Source: Chloroflexota bacterium (lineage in GTDB: Bacteria > Chloroflexota > Limnocylindria > P2-11E). Taken from it: DNA of 40,157 nucleotides. A program made the translations under genes and the position numbers. The notes below the pieces were generated by a model. That model saw nothing but the letters and a program-made list of their open reading frames with translations, did no database searches and was not told where the DNA came from. Below, one piece after another: positions 9,487 to 18,251 of this stretch; position 1 is the stretch's first letter, and every line of letters starts with the position of its first letter. Location: positions 1 through 40,157 of the forward strand of contig VBEY01000238.1 of NCBI GenBank assembly GCA_005889295.1, written 5' to 3'.

Positions 9487-10625
9487 TCGTCGACACGATG
9501 TTCTGGGGCGCCCGTCAGGGGGGCGTCGCCGCGCTCGAGCGCGAGCTGACCCGCCTGCGCCGGGCGCAGAGCGCGCACGCCCGTGAGCTGGGGCGTCCGC
9601 TCGCGCGCGCGTCGGTGCTCAACCTCATTGTGTACGCCGACCGCGAGGAGCACGCGCGTCGCGCGGCCCGAAGCATCGCGGACCTGGCGCTCCGCCATCC
9701 ATCTCGCGCGATCGTCGTTCTCGTCGACCGCGGCGCGCGCGAGGGCGTGGACAAGCGCATCGAGATGCATTGCCGGCTGCCGATCGCGGACGGCGCCCGC
9801 CTCGTTTGCTACGAGCAGATCCTCGTCCGCGCGCACGGCGACGTCGAGGATCGCCTCGCGTCCGCGGTGATCCCGCTGCTCGTGCCGGACCTTCCGGTGT
9901 TTCTCTGGTGGACCGGAACGCCGCCTCTCGGTTCGCGGTCGTTCGGCGACTTGCTGCGTCTGACCGACCGGCTTGTCGTCGACTCCGCGGACTTCGCGCG
10001 GCCCGAGCTCACGCTGCCGATCATCGCGCGCATCTCCGAGGCGGCGCGAGGACGGTTCGGGCTCACCGACCTCAATTGGACGCGTCTCACGCCCTGGCGC
10101 GAGATCGCGACAGCGTTCTTCGACGTCCCCTCGTGGCGGCTCTTTCTGGACGGTATCACCGGCCTCCGTGTCGGTTTTGCCGTCGACATGGATGGACGTG
10201 ACATCCATCCGTCGCAGGCGTTGCTGTTCGTGGGATGGCTCGCGTCGCGTCTCGGCTGGCGACCGCTCGAGACACTCGCCCCCTCAGAGGCCGGCGGACT
10301 CCTGTTCGCGATCGCGCGCCCCGACGGCGCGCGCATCATGGTCCGGGTGCGGCCACGCTTCGAACGCGGGCTCGAGGAAGGCGACATCTCCGGAATCCGC
10401 ATCCAAGCCACCAGCACGAGCGAGCTGGCGGAGTTCGTCGTGAAACGCCAGCCCTCGCCACGCCACCAAACCGCCACCGTCCTCCTGAACGGCCAGCCGC
10501 GCTGGGAGCGCACGATGCCGCTCCCGTCACCCGCGATCGTCGAGCTCATCGGTGAGGAGCTCTCGATCCTCGGGAGCGACCGAACCTACGAGGCGGCCCT
10601 CGCCGCCCTCGTCGAGCTCGCCTAG
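9471..10625 (+). CDS. opcA: Glucose-6-phosphate dehydrogenase assembly protein OpcA
   Basis: Follows zwf with overlap (GTG 9471); [75 protein letters not shown]; OpcA-type motifs. Confidence 0.9.
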
Positions 10626-10659
10626 TCCGGTAGCACCCGAGGTGCGGACCAACGACGGT

Positions 10660-11916
10660 ATGGCCAGCGAGAAGAGGGTGCGGCGCGGCGTAGCCGAACC
10701 GGCGCGACAGCTTGCGAAGCGGTATCGCCTGATTGAGCGCATCGATGAGGGCGGGGCCGGCGAGGTGTGGCGCGCGCGCGACGAGAAGCTCGACCGCGAC
10801 GTCGCGATCAAGCTCCTCGGCCCCGATGCGGACGACGCATTCCGAGCGCGTTTCGCGGACGAGGCACGCCGCGCGGCGGCCGTCGTCCACCCCAACGTCG
10901 TCACGGTATTCGACGAGGGCCGCGACGGTGCGGACGCGTTCATGGTCATGGAGCTCGTGCCCGGAAAGACGCTCCGTGAGATCGTGGCCGAGCGCGGTCC
11001 GTTGCCTGCGCACGAGGTGGCCCGTCTCATCAGGCAGGTCGCCGGCGCACTCGACGCCGCTCACGCCGCCGGCGTCGTGCATTGCGATGTGAAGCCGGCG
11101 AACGTGATCGTCGATCGGGAGGGCGTCGCGAAGCTCACCGATTTCGGGATCGCCCGCGCGGCGCGCGACCGTGACGAGCAGGAGCTGCTCGGCACGGCGC
11201 GCTACATCGCGCCCGAGCGAGTCGAAGGTGGACAGGTCACGGCGCGCACCGACGTGTACGGCCTTGGCCTTGTCGCCTACGAGCTCCTGACGGGCCGGCC
11301 CGCGTTCGATGGCGCGACCAGCGAGGAGCTCGTGCGCGAGCGGCTTCTCGGGCCACCTCCGTCGCTCCGACTCGCGCGTGTCGGCATCGACGACCGGCTC
11401 GACGCGATCGTCGGACGCGCGCTCGCGCCAGTGCCGGACCGTCGCTACGCCAGCGCCGGTGCGTTCGCTCGAGCGTTCTCCAACGTGGCGGACGAGGACG
11501 GGGAGCCTACCTCGGCGTTGCGTTCGCTGGGCCGGGCGCGCTCGAGATCCATCAGCTGGTCGTTGCCGCGCTTCGACACCGCGGTCGCGATCCTCGCGGT
11601 GCTCGCGATCCTGCTCGCGCTCTTCCTGTTTTTCTCGTCGTTTCCGAGAGTGGCGGGGCCCGGTCCGAACCCGACCGCGGCATCGAGCGCGCCTGCGGCC
11701 GGCACGCCGAACGTCGTAGGCAAGAGACTCTCGGACGCGATCAGCGCGCTCCAGTCCGCCGGCTACCCGGTCGTCGAGTGGGCTCCCGGGCAGGGTCAGG
11801 GGAGTCAGTGTGCCGTTCTCCGGCAGGACCCGCCGGCAGGCACAGCGCTGGCGCGCGGCGCGAAAACGACCCTCTCGTACGTCCCGGGAAACGACTGCAC
11901 GAAGAAAGGGGACTAG
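10660..11916 (+). CDS. Ser/Thr protein kinase with one TM segment and one PASTA domain
   Basis: RYRLIERIDEGGAGEVWRARDEKLDRDVAIKLL, HCDVKPANVIVD, KLTDFGIAR, GTARYIAPE; TM ILAVLAILLALFLFFSSF; PASTA-like PNVVGKRLSDAISALQSAGYPVVEW...VLRQDPPAGTAL. ATG at 10660. Confidence 0.93.
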   Translation: MASEKRVRRGVAEPARQLAKRYRLIERIDEGGAGEVWRARDEKLDRDVAIKLLGPDADDAFRARFADEARRAAAVVHPNVVTVFDEGRDGADAFMVMELVPGKTLREIVAERGPLPAHEVARLIRQVAGALDAAHAAGVVHCDVKPANVIVDREGVAKLTDFGIARAARDRDEQELLGTARYIAPERVEGGQVTARTDVYGLGLVAYELLTGRPAFDGATSEELVRERLLGPPPSLRLARVGIDDRLDAIVGRALAPVPDRRYASAGAFARAFSNVADEDGEPTSALRSLGRARSRSISWSLPRFDTAVAILAVLAILLALFLFFSSFPRVAGPGPNPTAASSAPAAGTPNVVGKRLSDAISALQSAGYPVVEWAPGQGQGSQCAVLRQDPPAGTALARGAKTTLSYVPGNDCTKKGD

Positions 11917-11918
11917 GG

Positions 11919-12713
11919 CTGGGAGCGCGAACCGCGGCACGCACCGATACCGGACGCGTGCGCGAGAACAACGAAGATCGCTACCTCGTGCGCGATGGAG
12001 GGAACACGACGCTCCTCGCGGTGGCCGACGGGGTCGGCGGCGAAGCCGGCGGGGAGATGGCGAGCGCCGCAGCGATCGACGGGCTCGCCGCGAGCTTCTT
12101 CGGCTCGGGCTCCGAACGCGCGCCCGCGGAAGCGCTGGCGGCCGCGATCCGCGGCGCGAACGACGCGGTGCTCAGCGCGGCCGGCAAGAGCGGTCAGCAG
12201 GGTGCGGCGTCGACACTGGTGGCGGCGGCGATCGCAGGCACAAGCGCGGTGATCGGCAACCTCGGCGACAGCCGCGCCTATCTCCTGCGCGACGGCGATA
12301 TCCGCCTCGTCACCGCCGATCACTCCGGCGAGTTCCAGAGCTCGATCACGAGATTCGTGGGCGATCCCCGCGGTGTGCAGCCCGACGTGTTCGTCGAGAC
12401 TCTCCGCCCTGGCGACCGGCTCCTGCTCTGCTCGGATGGCCTCACGCGACATGTGCCGGACGGGGAGATCGCTTCGACCGTGCGGCGTGCCAATCTCGAG
12501 ATGGCGGCAGCGGCCCTCATCGACCTGGCCAAGTCGCGTGGCGGCGAGGACAACATCACGGTCGTGCTCTACGCGGTTCGCCGCACGTTTGGCTTCGCCG
12601 ACGTGCGCCGGAACCTCGTCAACCTCGTGCTCGCCTTGCTCGCGTTGGTCGTCGTAGCCGGCACGATCGCCGCTCTCGTCTTCGCTAGCGGCGCGTACCC
12701 GACCGCACCGTAG
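11919..12713 (+). CDS. PP2C family Ser/Thr phosphatase with C-terminal TM
   Basis: TDTGRVRENNEDRYLV, LLAVADGVGGEAGGEMAS, VIGNLGDSRAYLLRDGD, LLLCSDGLTRHVPDGE, EDNITVVLY: complete PP2C motif set. Start probably CTG 11919 (AGGGGA upstream) or GTG near 11808 inside the kinase gene. Confidence 0.92.
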   Translation: MGARTAARTDTGRVRENNEDRYLVRDGGNTTLLAVADGVGGEAGGEMASAAAIDGLAASFFGSGSERAPAEALAAAIRGANDAVLSAAGKSGQQGAASTLVAAAIAGTSAVIGNLGDSRAYLLRDGDIRLVTADHSGEFQSSITRFVGDPRGVQPDVFVETLRPGDRLLLCSDGLTRHVPDGEIASTVRRANLEMAAAALIDLAKSRGGEDNITVVLYAVRRTFGFADVRRNLVNLVLALLALVVVAGTIAALVFASGAYPTAP

Positions 12714-15700
12714 CGAGCAGGCGGGAGAACCCCGGCGAGCCGCTCCACATGATGAGCATCGCGACTGTCGCGGCGACCGCCACCGAGAGCGCGAGCCGGC
12801 CGAAGAGCGCGACCACCGAGAAGGACGAGCCGATGGTCGGATTGCAGACGAACGTTGGATAGAACTGGCACTCGTAGGTCCACGTCGGAAGGATGAAGAA
12901 CATCCCCGCTTGTGCGCCTGGGAAGGGTTGCGCCGAGATGAACGGGTAGAAGTACGCGAAAGCCGCGGCGGCGGCTGCGAGGTAGCCGACCACCAAACGG
13001 GCCCGGCCGGTCTCCCACAGGAATGCGAGCCCCGCCGCGAGAGCGAGCAGGTAGAACGGCAGCACCGTGAAGAAGTGATAGAAGAAGAGCACGCGTCCGA
13101 TCGGGATCCACGCGACGTACTGCGCGAGGCCCGCGAATACCACGAACGCGAGCGGCACCGATCGCGCCCGGATCGCGGCGACGGCGCACCAGCAGAACGC
13201 GACCAGCCCGGCCCAGAACAGAACGACGTTGCCCGCGTCGTAGATGTACGCGTTGTCGCCGCCACTCGACGCGCCGAAATACCAGTAGACCGGTTTGAGC
13301 ACCAGTGGCCAGCTCCACCAGGGCGATCCGGCGGGATGCGGGGCGGTCAGGCTGGAGTGGTACCAGTACATCTGCTGCGTCAGCTCGACGAGGTTCCAGC
13401 CATACGGAATCGTCGGACCGCCGAACCAGCGCAGATAGCTCGCGAGGTAGATCGCGGCCGGAACTACGGCGAACGAGACAAAGAGGATGACCGCATTGAG
13501 CCCGCGGCGCGCCAGGAGGTCGAGCGGCCCGCCCGTCCCGGGCCGACCGCGCTCGTACGCTCGGGCGGTGACAGCGATCGACGCGATGAGCAAGCCGACC
13601 AGCGTGTACGCGCCCGCCCATTTCGAGGCGAGCGCCAGGCCGAACAGCACGCCGGCGATCAGCACGTCGACGAGCGCGGAGCGCCTGGGTCTGTACGCGG
13701 CGACGACGAAGTACCAGCCGGCCACGATGAGCGTCGCCACGTAGATGTCGTTCATGCCGATCCGCGCCTGCGCGAACATCGAGCCATCGAGGACGACCGC
13801 GAGACCGACGAGCGCGGGCAGCACCGCCGACGCGAACAGGCGGCGGGCGAGGAGCACAAGCAGGAAGGCGAGGAGCGCCGCGAACAGGACGCCCGGTAGC
13901 CGCCAGGCGAGGGCGTGGCGGCCGGTCTCGATGAGATCGGCTCCGCCCGGGCCCGCGACAACGAGCGTGTCGCCCTCCCCGTCCACGCCGAGCATCGAGC
14001 CGCCGACGGGGATCGACGCGTACGGCGAGGTCCCGTGCGTCTCGACGACCACGACGCGTCCTTCGTCGAGGGCATAGAGGAAATCGGTGCGCGGCACGAC
14101 CGCGAGCGCGCTCGCCCCGCTCGAGAACGTGCCGGTGCGCGGGTTCGCGAGCGGGACCGCGTCGTGTGATCCCGTCTCGAGCTCGTACACATCGAGGGTC
14201 GCGGAGTCGGCACGCGCAACGAAAACACGATTCGGCCCGAGCGCGTACGCGATGGCCGTCCCTGGGCGGCCGCCGGTGAGCGCGCGCGTCTCCTTCGCAG
14301 TCTCCGCGGAGATGACGTGCACGATCCCCTGCGGATCGAGTGCGTAAAACTCGCTGCCGTCGGTCTTGGCGGTGACCGCGACCGTCGCGATCGGGACGAT
14401 CGTGGGGTCCGCATCAAGCGTTGAGTACACGGCGAGGGATCGCGAAGTCCCGACGAGGACCCGACCGACGCTCACGGTGAACGACGTCACCGCCGGCTCT
14501 CCTACGCGCGCCCGTACCCTGCTGAAGCTCAGGTGGCCCGACGGGGTTGCGCGGATCGACGGGGTCAGATCGATCTCATCGATCTCCTGGTCGATCACCG
14601 CGAAGATTCGATCGTCGTCGATCGCGAGTCCCTGGGGCGGCCCGAGCAGCTGCGTGAGCGTCTGCGGGCTCGCTCCGCGTTCGGCGATCTGGATCGTGCC
14701 ATCCGCGAGCGCGTACACCCGCAACCCGTCGTTCGCGACCGCCGACATGACCGTGGTCGCGGGCGCACTCTCGTGTCGGGAGACTCGATCGTCGCCGAAG
14801 GCGAGGATCCCGAGCGCCATGATCTCCTTCGCGAGATGCGGGTGCGTCCACTCGTAGGGCTCACGCTGCGCGAGGAGCTCGAACGCGGTACGCGCGTGGT
14901 AGACCTCGTCGAAGTACATGTCGCGCGGCCAGTCCAGGCGGTAGCCGCGGGTCCCGAGCACCGCGAGCGCGACGAGCGCCGCGACGGTCACGTCGCGGCG
15001 GGTCGGGGCCCGGCCGGTCCCGAGCCCGGCGGGTAGGATCCACCGCCCCTCCCGCGCGGGACCGTCGACCGGGATGCTCCAGCGCGTGTCATTCTCGAGC
15101 CGGGCGTCTCCCCGCAGGAGCCGCCAGACCAAGTACGCGGCCGCGCCCAGCAACACGAGCGCGATGCCGATCTGTCCGGCCCGGCTGAAGAGCGTCGCCT
15201 CGAGGATCTGCGGGACGCGCAGGTCGACGTACTGCTCGTAGCGCGTGAAGGCGTAATAGAGCGACAGCGCGAAGGCGAGAGCGAGCACCACATACGGCGG
15301 CAGCACGCGCTTGCGCGCGGCGGCGAACGGAAGGGCGAGCGCGAACACCGGGAAGAGATACCGCTCGTGCGCGCGTGTCGGCAGGAAGTAGAACGCGAGA
15401 CCGGCCAGGACCGCGCAGGCGAGCAGCGTCGCGGTGTCCCGACGCCACCAGAGCGGAACGACCGACAAAACCAGGCCGACGACGAGCAGGACACCGCCCC
15501 AGTAGACGAGATCGGTATCCGACTTCCAGAAGTCGAAGAAGACGGACCACGCGTTGAACGCGTAGAGCGAGGTGAAGGGGTAGGTCTCGGACGCGCTGCG
15601 CACAAGGCCGACGAGCTCGGCCGCGATGCGCGTCGGGTCGACACCCCAGAACGGAACGCTCAAGGCGTATGCGGTCGCTGCGGCGCCTCCGATCACGAGA

Positions 15701-16311
15701 GCCACCGGCCGCGGGTGCGCCTCGCGGATGAACTCGAACGCCGCGGCCGCCCCGATCACCAGCAGACCGATGCCGAACTGCGGCTTCACCAGGGCCGCGA
15801 GCGCGCCGAGCGCCCCCGCGAGCAGCCAGCGTCGGGATCCGGCGGCGACGAGGGAGCCGAAGAGTGGCAGCGTCCCGACCGCGTCGACCTGCCCCCAGTA
15901 CGGTCCGGCGAAGATCGGTCCGGGCTGGAGCGACCAGAGCGCAGCGGCGGCGATGGCGGCGGTGCGCCCGGCGCTCCGCCACAAGAGGCGCGCCCCGAGC
16001 AGCGCGATGCCGACGTCTGCTGGGATGCTGATCGCTTTGACGGCGAGCCGAAGAAGCTCGCCGTCGAAGAGCGCGCCGAGAAGCCACAGGACGTACAGGA
16101 ACGCGGGTGGGTAGTCGCTGAAATAGCCCGGTTCGTAGAAGCGCCCCGGGCCGATTTCGGCGAGTCGCTCGGCCCACGCCTCGAACGTGCCGACGTCGGT
16201 CGGAAAGCCCTGCGCACGTACCGCGAGGAGACGGACGATCACGCCGATCGCGATGACGCCCACGACGAGCAGTCGCGCGCGGCGGTCGCGGCCGACGACG
16301 TCGTCGTTCAT
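12685..16311 (-). CDS. Giant GT-C protein: N-terminal GT87/ArnT-like module fused to PMT (GT39)-like module containing a propeller-like insertion
   Basis: 1208 aa single ORF. N-terminal half FPTDVGTFEAWAERLAEIGPGRFYEPGYFSDYPPAFLYVLWLL plus many TM; second half GYRLDWPRDMYFDEVYHARTAFELLAQREPYEWTHPHLAKEIMALGILAFGD, then a ~290-aa soluble insert, then multi-TM PMT-like C-terminus. ATGA overlap with 16308..17498. Confidence 0.85.
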   Translation of the reverse strand: MNDDVVGRDRRARLLVVGVIAIGVIVRLLAVRAQGFPTDVGTFEAWAERLAEIGPGRFYEPGYFSDYPPAFLYVLWLLGALFDGELLRLAVKAISIPADVGIALLGARLLWRSAGRTAAIAAAALWSLQPGPIFAGPYWGQVDAVGTLPLFGSLVAAGSRRWLLAGALGALAALVKPQFGIGLLVIGAAAAFEFIREAHPRPVALVIGGAAATAYALSVPFWGVDPTRIAAELVGLVRSASETYPFTSLYAFNAWSVFFDFWKSDTDLVYWGGVLLVVGLVLSVVPLWWRRDTATLLACAVLAGLAFYFLPTRAHERYLFPVFALALPFAAARKRVLPPYVVLALAFALSLYYAFTRYEQYVDLRVPQILEATLFSRAGQIGIALVLLGAAAYLVWRLLRGDARLENDTRWSIPVDGPAREGRWILPAGLGTGRAPTRRDVTVAALVALAVLGTRGYRLDWPRDMYFDEVYHARTAFELLAQREPYEWTHPHLAKEIMALGILAFGDDRVSRHESAPATTVMSAVANDGLRVYALADGTIQIAERGASPQTLTQLLGPPQGLAIDDDRIFAVIDQEIDEIDLTPSIRATPSGHLSFSRVRARVGEPAVTSFTVSVGRVLVGTSRSLAVYSTLDADPTIVPIATVAVTAKTDGSEFYALDPQGIVHVISAETAKETRALTGGRPGTAIAYALGPNRVFVARADSATLDVYELETGSHDAVPLANPRTGTFSSGASALAVVPRTDFLYALDEGRVVVVETHGTSPYASIPVGGSMLGVDGEGDTLVVAGPGGADLIETGRHALAWRLPGVLFAALLAFLLVLLARRLFASAVLPALVGLAVVLDGSMFAQARIGMNDIYVATLIVAGWYFVVAAYRPRRSALVDVLIAGVLFGLALASKWAGAYTLVGLLIASIAVTARAYERGRPGTGGPLDLLARRGLNAVILFVSFAVVPAAIYLASYLRWFGGPTIPYGWNLVELTQQMYWYHSSLTAPHPAGSPWWSWPLVLKPVYWYFGASSGGDNAYIYDAGNVVLFWAGLVAFCWCAVAAIRARSVPLAFVVFAGLAQYVAWIPIGRVLFFYHFFTVLPFYLLALAAGLAFLWETGRARLVVGYLAAAAAAFAYFYPFISAQPFPGAQAGMFFILPTWTYECQFYPTFVCNPTIGSSFSVVALFGRLALSVAVAATVAMLIMWSGSPGFSRLLATVRSGTRR

Positions 16312-17498
16312 TGCCAGTACTCGAAGCGCGTGATCGCGATCGTGGCATAGATGTTGACCGCGAGCGACAGGACGATCGCGACGATGAAGACGATCGTCGG
16401 CCGACGTCTCCAGACCCCACGGAAGAGACCGTCGCCGGTGAGCGCGAGGGCCACGAGGAAGGGCTGCGCGTCGATGCTGAAGCGGTAGCCAAACTGCTGG
16501 AAGCCCACGGTGCCGTGGAACAGATCCGGTAGCAGCGCAAAGAGCGCGGCCGCCGCGGCCGCGGCCACGACGACGTCGCGGCGGACCTGGCGCAGCGCGA
16601 TGAAGATCCAGAGGAAGGCCGGCGTCGTGAGAAAGAGGCTCATCCCGATGAAGTGGGGACGCAGAAAGAACGGCGTTCCCGGAACGATCTCGGGCGCCTG
16701 CAGGAAGATCGCGTAGAGCTGTCGCGGCAGGTAGAGCGGTGAGAAGAGCCCGTGGTTGAAGAACACGTCGCCTTGCGTGAGGCGCGCGTAGCCCTCATCG
16801 AGAGGGGTGCCCCAACGCAACAGGTTGTAACCGAAGTACACCACGGCGAACGGCACGCCGCCCGCGATCACGCCGCCAAGAGACTTTCCGTACGCCGTCC
16901 CGGCGCGCCGAGCGCAGAGCAGCGCGAGCGCCGGGGCGGCGAGCGCGACAGGCAAACGGGCGAGGGCGGAGACACCGATCAGCGCTCCGATCGCGACCGC
17001 GTTGCCGCCGCGCGCTGCGATCGCGAAGGCACCGGACAGAAAAAGCATCGACGCCGCGTGTGCCGCGTACCATGCGCGACCGTCGACGCTCGAAAAGAAG
17101 AGCGTCGTTCCGAAGGCCGAGAGGAGCGCACCCGCAAGCGCGAACGTACGCGGCGCCCCGAACGCACGGAGCCCGTAATAGAGGACACCGGCTGACGCTC
17201 CGCCTGCGATCCGTGACGCCACGACCTGCGCCACAGCCGTCGAAAAGAACGGCACGAGCGGAAGCGAGAGGATCGCGGGGAGAGGCGGATACACGACACA
17301 GAAGCGGCCGTCGCCGCAGGGGAGAAGCTCGTTCAGCCACGGCGGCGCCTCGGTGAGCCACCATCGCCCGTGGAGCAACGCTTCCGCCAATCGGCCGTGG
17401 TAGTCGTAGTCGGTCGAGAGCCCAATGCCGGCGGCGACGTAGATCGCGGCCGCGATCGCCCCGATCCAGATCGCCGCTGCTCGGTCGGACACGGTCAT
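16308..17498 (-). CDS. Multi-pass membrane protein, probable GT-C-type glycosyltransferase
   Basis: About 396 aa with repeated TM segments; IYVAAGIGLSTDYDYHGRLAEALLHGRWWLTEAPPWLNELLPCGDGRFCVVYPPLPAILSLPLVPFF loop reminiscent of GT-C first periplasmic loop; operonic with the next GT-C gene. Confidence 0.75.
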   Translation of the reverse strand: MTVSDRAAAIWIGAIAAAIYVAAGIGLSTDYDYHGRLAEALLHGRWWLTEAPPWLNELLPCGDGRFCVVYPPLPAILSLPLVPFFSTAVAQVVASRIAGGASAGVLYYGLRAFGAPRTFALAGALLSAFGTTLFFSSVDGRAWYAAHAASMLFLSGAFAIAARGGNAVAIGALIGVSALARLPVALAAPALALLCARRAGTAYGKSLGGVIAGGVPFAVVYFGYNLLRWGTPLDEGYARLTQGDVFFNHGLFSPLYLPRQLYAIFLQAPEIVPGTPFFLRPHFIGMSLFLTTPAFLWIFIALRQVRRDVVVAAAAAAALFALLPDLFHGTVGFQQFGYRFSIDAQPFLVALALTGDGLFRGVWRRRPTIVFIVAIVLSLAVNIYATIAITRFEYWQ

Positions 17499-17528: not shown

Positions 17529-18251
17529 GTGCCCGCTCGGCTCGACGGCCTCTCCTTCTTCTTCCCCGCCCTGAACGAAGAGGAGAACGTGGCGCCGATC
17601 GTCGAAGAGGCGCTCACGGTGCTACCGCGGTTCGCGGACGATCTCGAGATAACCGTCGTCGACGACGGGAGCACCGACCGCACTGGCGCGATCGCCGACG
17701 AGCTGGCCCTGAAAGACTCGCGCGTCCGGGTCATCCATCACGGGAGCCGCCGTGGCTACGGCGGCGCGGTCCGGTCGGGTCTCGTCGCCGCGACAAAGCC
17801 CTGGGTCTTCTTCACGGACGGGGATCGCCAGTTCGCGCTCGAGGACCTCGGCCGTCTGGTGGAAGCGGCGGACGGCGCGGACGCGGTCGTGGGCTACCGA
17901 ATAAAGCGCGCCGATCCGGCGCGGCGCCTGTTCGTGGCGTGGGTCTACAACCGCCTCATCCGTCTCCTGTTCGGTGGCGGCTGGCGGGATGTCGACTGCG
18001 CGTTCAAGCTCTTCCGCCGGGATGTGTTCGCGCGCGTGCCGCTCGAGCGCGTTCGCTCGAACGGCGCGTTCTTCTCACCGGAGCTTCTCATCACGCTGCG
18101 GCGTGCGGGCCTGCGCGTCCGCCAGGTCGGCGTGCGGCACTTTCCCCGGACGGCGCACGAGCCGAAAGGGGCTTCGCCTCGCGTGATCGTTCGCGCCATC
18201 CGGGATCTCCTACGGTTACGCGCTCGTCTCTGGCTCCGCCCGAACGACTAG
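17529..18251 (+). CDS. Family 2 glycosyltransferase, DPM1/polyprenyl-phosphate-sugar synthase-like
   Basis: LSFFFPALNEEENVAPIVEEAL...LEITVVDDGSTDRTGAIADEL...HHGSRRGYGGAVRSGL...FFTDGDRQFALEDL...DAVVGYRIKRADP; GTG start at 17529. Confidence 0.9.
   Translation: MPARLDGLSFFFPALNEEENVAPIVEEALTVLPRFADDLEITVVDDGSTDRTGAIADELALKDSRVRVIHHGSRRGYGGAVRSGLVAATKPWVFFTDGDRQFALEDLGRLVEAADGADAVVGYRIKRADPARRLFVAWVYNRLIRLLFGGGWRDVDCAFKLFRRDVFARVPLERVRSNGAFFSPELLITLRRAGLRVRQVGVRHFPRTAHEPKGASPRVIVRAIRDLLRLRARLWLRPND

Follow-up and report, generated by a model that had tools for sequence, protein, structure and literature searches.

A predicted seven-bladed β-propeller within the catalytic loop of a fused GT87-like/PMT glycosyltransferase of Chloroflexota

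Background

How PMTs choose their acceptors is an open question, and bacterial PMTs are thought to manage without a large accessory domain. The stretch of DNA analyzed here (the window; 40,157 nucleotides, contig VBEY01000238.1 of a soil Chloroflexota bacterium, assembly GCA_005889295.1) encodes a PMT-family protein in which the initial annotation had noticed a soluble, propeller-like segment of about 290 amino acids at positions 13915-14795. What is this segment, where does it lie relative to the active site, how widely is it shared, and what might it do there?

Results and discussion

The gene and its membrane enzyme

The segment is encoded within a gene that is present in a single copy in the source genome and whose product consists of two membrane modules, the second of which is split by the insert:

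12688..16311, minus strand: two-module GT-C protein of 1208 aa, a GT87-like module followed by a PMT module with a propeller insert (ORF and translation; stop codon at 12685-12687)
15004..16287, minus strand: N-terminal GT-C module, aa 9-436, GT87/PIG-M-like (Pfam GT87, profile, invariant residues)
14794..15003, minus strand: N-terminal part of the PMT module, aa 437-506, TM1 and the catalytic loop to the HPHLAKE helix (AF2 helices 438-456, 472-480 and 493-505; conserved in all relatives)
14905..14913, minus strand: FDE catalytic motif, F467 D468 E469 (D468 and E469 invariant in 40 sequences)
14824..14844, minus strand: HPHLAKE motif, which opens the helix preceding the insert (H490, P491 and K495 invariant in 40 sequences)
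12862..13917, minus strand: C-terminal part of the PMT module, aa 799-1150, the remaining TM helices with EL4/EL5 (Pfam PMT and PMT_4TMC)
13747..13764, minus strand: RIGMND, R850-D855, second catalytic Asp position (R850, M853, N854 and D855 invariant in 40 sequences)
13075..13095, minus strand: RVLFFYH, R1073-H1079, Rx2Y/F motif (R1073, Y1078 and H1079 invariant in 40 sequences)

The protein scores above the Pfam gathering scores for PMT (PF02366; 50.1 bits against 22.7, residues 798-958) and PMT_4TMC (PF16192; 42.5 bits against 32.4, residues 974-1144), while PMT_2 and GT87 give only below-cut-off scores on the whole protein. The best PMT stretch begins at residue 798, and therefore the insert is largely skipped by the annotation library. 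The NCBIfam protein O-mannosyltransferase equivalog NF058602 gives 40.9 bits against a cut-off of 800; by these profile scores the fusion protein lies outside the narrow curated bacterial PMT equivalog and inside the broader PMT family. An AF2 model of residues 1-1199 has a mean pLDDT of 86.4 and a pTM of 0.76, and in Foldseek it matches the fungal Pmt4 membrane domain (9i5k; E 1e-8, TMt 0.56, 388 columns) as well as propellers.

In Mycobacterium tuberculosis PMT (MtPMT) D74, D176 and R441 (with Y444) are essential, and ScPmt1 has R649/F652 in the parallel position of the last of these (PMC12331936). The FDE of the fusion protein matches the DE motif of PMTs (PMC12331936, PMC12705809), and, as judged by motif, D468/E469, D855 and R1073 (with F1076) correspond to MtPMT D74, D176 and R441 (with Y444). 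Invariant in the 40-sequence alignment, too, are the tryptophans W998, W999 and W1001 of the EL4 region. The arginines of TRRD before TM1 and of ARRLF after TM2 fit cytosolic ends, which would place the loop between them on the extracytoplasmic side. By its sequence the protein is a PMT/GT39-type enzyme with its catalytic residues intact, and a protein-mannosylating role is predicted. The initial annotation's "PMT-family enzyme" thus stands for the PMT half (Pfam, motifs and Pmt4-like fold), but it had missed the GT87-like N-terminal module, the divergent GT2 gene and the class-wide occurrence of the arrangement, all described here. In Chloroflexota class families f3-f5 (L036-L048 and others) a further 100-300 aa or more lie within the C-terminal part of the PMT module, a good part of them near query residues 913-937, probably in a cytoplasmic loop.

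The assignment of the N-terminal module to GT87 (PF09594, cut-off 25.0) is borderline, with 25.2 bits for the module alone and 22.2 when the entire protein is scanned. A profile of the module matches GPI mannosyltransferase 1 (E 7e-6), and the invariant D39, D66, Q141/D143 and H315-Y318 are candidate catalytic residues. Mycobacterium has a GT87 enzyme, PimE, that extends glycans begun by PMT (PMC12757957), so a fused extender may reasonably be supposed; PimE is encoded by a separate gene there, whereas the borderline-GT87 module is in the same chain here.

The insert is a predicted propeller in the catalytic loop

The insert and a conserved motif within it are as follows:

13918..14793, minus strand: inserted seven-bladed β-propeller, aa 507-798, 292 aa, extracytoplasmic (AF2, Foldseek, profile against the PDB)
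14032..14043, minus strand: ETHG motif in blade 6, aa 757-760 (E757 nearly invariant class-wide; distant inserts share E[PT]HG or EPH, in register in profile comparisons)

Residues 507-798 stand between the HPHLAKEIMALGILAFG helix and the TM run HALAWRLPGVLFAALLAFLLVLLARRLF, with HALAWRLPG as the downstream border; these limits are within 3 bases of those first given for the segment. It had been placed in the first extracytoplasmic region beside the DE motif, and it does follow the HPHLAKE helix in the catalytic loop. The statement that the MIR domain of eukaryotic PMTs occupies a different, later loop also holds (it lies between TMD7 and TMD8; PMC12705809). Since the insert lies between the HPHLAKEIMALGILAFG helix and TM2, and MIR between TMD7 and TMD8, the insert is in the catalytic loop itself and not at the MIR position. 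A eukaryote-like MIR is ruled out as its identity by this EL1 location and by the Pfam scan, which found no MIR match in the fusion protein.

AF2 modeling of 310 residues covering the insert gave a pLDDT of 90.8 and a pTM of 0.89, with 28 strands that form seven four-stranded blades, the same number as the β-rich units that had been picked out by eye in the sequence. In the near-full-length model the same propeller lies between helix 493-505 and helix 798-825. The modeled strand order fits a WD40-like 1+3 closure, in which the first strand would complete the last blade. Foldseek with the insert model finds WD40 propellers at TM about 0.7-0.75 (best E 2.8e-12), its best structural neighbours including β'-COP, WDR5 and G-β, and a profile of 23 inserts run against the PDB has as its best match the archaeal S-layer propeller 1l0q (E 5.5e-12), followed by WD40 proteins. 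The predicted fold is therefore backed by three lines, namely sequence profile, AF2 and Foldseek, which agree whether AF2 was given the insert alone or residues 1-1199; the model is confident, and a disordered or non-propeller insert is ruled out by it. No Pfam WD40 repeat model matched the 23 inserts (one member hit WD40_WDHD1_1st at E 0.0077), and the YVTN model TIGR02276 matched 3 of the 23 (best E 2.9e-4). A canonical WD40 or PQQ propeller by family model is ruled out, as there was no consistent Pfam match. A search of the propeller for ligand-binding signatures of known type found none.

The known systems nearest to this protein share its parts. MtPMT (bacterial GT39; PMC12331936) has the same PMT and PMT_4TMC core, D/E in EL1, second Asp, Rx2Y/F in EL5 and extracytoplasmic active site, but enzymes of its type consist of one module (about 550 aa) and lack MIR or other large soluble domains, and their acceptor groove is attributed to EL4; the fusion protein adds the EL1 propeller and the GT87-like module in front. 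The eukaryotic MIR PMTs (Pmt1-Pmt2 and Pmt4; PMC7759382, PMC12705809) likewise combine a PMT core with a β-rich soluble domain near the active site, but theirs is a β-trefoil between TMD7 and TMD8, and ours a seven-bladed propeller between TM1 and TM2. The WD40/YVTN propellers (S-layer 1l0q, PkwA 5yzv, β'-COP) have seven four-stranded blades in an order that fits 1+3 closure; they differ in that the propeller of the fusion protein has no WD40 repeat match and is internal to a membrane enzyme. A full-text search of 5.39 million open-access papers (most subscription journals and the annotation databases being outside its scope) found no described PMT with a propeller. As far as searched, then, the components are known and the arrangement (EL1 propeller plus GT87-PMT fusion) is without a description; the first impression that it is not a described architecture stands in that sense, even though the family has proved to be large.

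Distribution and evolution of the insert

The insert is not unique to the source genome, a possibility ruled out by its relatives: the 42 full-length relatives that were aligned, which belong to five families of a single Chloroflexota class, all have an insert of 276-498 aa here, an occurrence not to be put down to chance, and among 61 relatives each of the 27 genomes that are at least 90% complete has a match to the fusion protein. Identity to the window protein in the insert is 37-62% within the family, 31-62% within the order and 15-20% between families; the parallel values for the C-terminal part of the PMT module are 54-91% within the order and 37-45% between families. Inserts of different families, with flanks stripped, are nevertheless related at 87-99.6% probability in profile comparisons.

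A sample of 151 genomes drawn across the phylum contains 40 with a match. Comparable inserts are absent from the PMTs of this sample that lie outside the class, which have gaps of 0-18 aa where the N-terminal part could be matched and, in the remainder, judged by eye, only a short loop. GTDB-wide matches include the two-module fusion without the insert in Patescibacteria, Bacillota and others (L094, L103, L104, L115, L125, L126), whose module order is identical but which have 1 aa between the two PMT segments where the fusion protein has the propeller, and shorter insert-free PMT genes in several Patescibacteria (2 aa gap). That ordinary PMTs run quickly into the next TM is borne out by these 1-2 aa between the flanking segments. 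With a folded module in the catalytic loop throughout the class, and natural fusions that lack it, this PMT family offers a clean comparison for the function of accessory modules.

A three-genome group labelled Actinomycetes has the insert, the fusion and the GT2 neighbour. In a tree of the PMT core the class forms one well-supported insert-bearing clade, with the 'Actinomycetes' group apart; this tree needs two changes for the insert, though the AU test does not reject one origin (p 0.20). The 'Actinomycetes' propeller aligns in register with that of the window family (94% probability); an E-P-H motif recurs in the penultimate blade of each, and both groups have the GT2 gene as a neighbour. 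These comparisons favour a common origin, or transfer of the unit, as likelier than two independent insertions.

Sequence change in the propeller is several times as fast as in the catalytic core, yet the propeller is under purifying selection. In comparisons with seven close relatives (simple Nei-Gojobori, dS roughly 0.4-1.0), dN/dS was 0.37-0.60 in the insert as against 0.02-0.16 in the PMT parts. Blades 5-7, by which the chain enters and leaves beside the attachment point, are conserved (strand means 0.54-0.87), whereas blades 1-3 are variable (0.14-0.70), a pattern expected of a domain that is fixed to the enzyme along one side and exposes a variable one. The loop faces at top and bottom do not differ in conservation (0.53 for both).

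Several relatives are unusual. Genome G061 has, besides the fused form, a stand-alone and very divergent PMT of 683 aa (L131) with a 245-aa insert at the same point. Two contigs titled Steroidobacteraceae and Gammaproteobacteria (L087 and L093) carry a Chloroflexota-type propeller PMT, L087 also with the GT2 neighbour; these are probably mislabelled or misbinned MAGs. The 323-aa insert of L072 (genome G010) is hit twice by its own profile along an overlapping stretch, which may reflect a partial duplication of blades, and in L069 (genome G006) a break within the insert divides the ORF into two frames.

Gene neighbourhood

The fusion gene is flanked by the following genes:

16308..17498, minus strand: upstream membrane protein of 396 aa (4-base overlap with the fusion gene)
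17529..18251, plus strand: divergent GT2 glycosyltransferase (PF00535, 101.5 bits)
11778-12713: PP2C phosphatase gene, converging on the PMT gene
10552-11916: PASTA-type Ser/Thr kinase gene, converging on the PMT gene

The gene for the 396-aa protein and the fusion gene are likely an operon. The 396-aa protein has no Pfam or NCBIfam match, but a neighbour 53-89% identical to it is present in relatives of families 1 and 2; distant relatives of it occur near PMTs in Patescibacteria. The PDB matches of the GT2 protein are ArnC-type transferases and dolichol-phosphate mannose synthase, and it is likely, by this resemblance, a polyprenyl-phosphate-sugar (donor) synthase. Throughout the class its orthologue adjoins the fusion gene in most relatives (46-89% identity), as it does and in the three-genome 'Actinomycetes' group (50-56%); it is absent beside the insert-free fusions, which have at most weak GT2 matches of about 30%. 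No other neighbour conserved across families was seen, only the GT2 and 396-aa proteins having been compared. The kinase/phosphatase/PMT gene order is kept in relatives.

What might the propeller do?

From the computed anatomy, fold, catalytic motifs, conservation and synteny we infer the sugar, acceptor, elongation and docking role as follows. The GT2 neighbour would make the polyprenyl-phosphate-sugar donor, the PMT half would use D468/E469, D855 and R1073 in putting a first sugar (probably mannose) on Ser/Thr of exported proteins, and the GT87-like half would probably extend it. The propeller should sit over or beside the mouth of the active site because its insertion point is bounded by TM2 and by the helix that follows the catalytic motif (a placement taken from the insertion point only), and there it would most likely dock the acceptor polypeptide or the growing glycan. 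It would thus play from EL1 the part that in eukaryotic PMTs falls to the MIR trefoil, in EL4. Mannose is bound by MIR domains, which also influence processivity (PMC7759382, PMC12705809). This combination of GT2 donor, PMT initiation, GT87-like extension and docking is the best overall explanation, and we put its chances at about even. The GT87-like fusion suggests that bacteria can couple the initiation of O-glycans to their elongation within a single protein. A bolder version is tentative: a single-chain O-glycosylation machine in which the PMT initiates, the fused GT87 elongates and the EL1 propeller clamps acceptor or growing glycan, a bacterial route to processivity or selectivity that is analogous to MIR but independent of it, ancestral to the entire Chloroflexota class and present, along with its donor synthase, in at least one further lineage.

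The same enzyme might instead use its propeller as a scaffold, either for oligomerisation or for holding a partner (proteins of the translocon, cell wall or division), without touching substrate. Propellers are generic protein-interaction platforms, the structural neighbours β'-COP, WDR5 and G-β are interaction propellers, and the PASTA kinase and PP2C phosphatase genes adjoin the fusion gene in family 1; against this, the insertion point adjoins the catalytic loop and the GT2 gene is the one neighbour conserved across families in the comparison above, which makes a scaffold doubtful, if still a serious contender.

PMT-fold enzymes can have other acceptors, and the PMT half could glycosylate a cell-envelope lipid or polysaccharide that the propeller grips. 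We think this unlikely: the low NF058602 score and the likeness of the fused module to PIG-M, which glycosylates a lipid, point that way, but the full set of PMT catalytic motifs, the Pmt4-like fold and the invariant EL4-region tryptophans argue for the protein-directed reading.

It is very improbable that the propeller is a sensor or gate of the active site, responding to a small ligand or to the folding state of the acceptor; it lies beside the catalytic loop and is anchored at both ends, which would allow it, and attached and detached MIR states have been proposed to regulate access in Pmt4 (PMC12705809), but neither loop face is the more conserved. Finally, a chance ORF, an assembly join or disordered filler, for which the split ORF of G006 is the nearest thing to support and nothing of weight speaks, is hardly conceivable and already refuted by the orthologues, in which the insert is conserved, folded and under purifying selection across dozens of independent assemblies.
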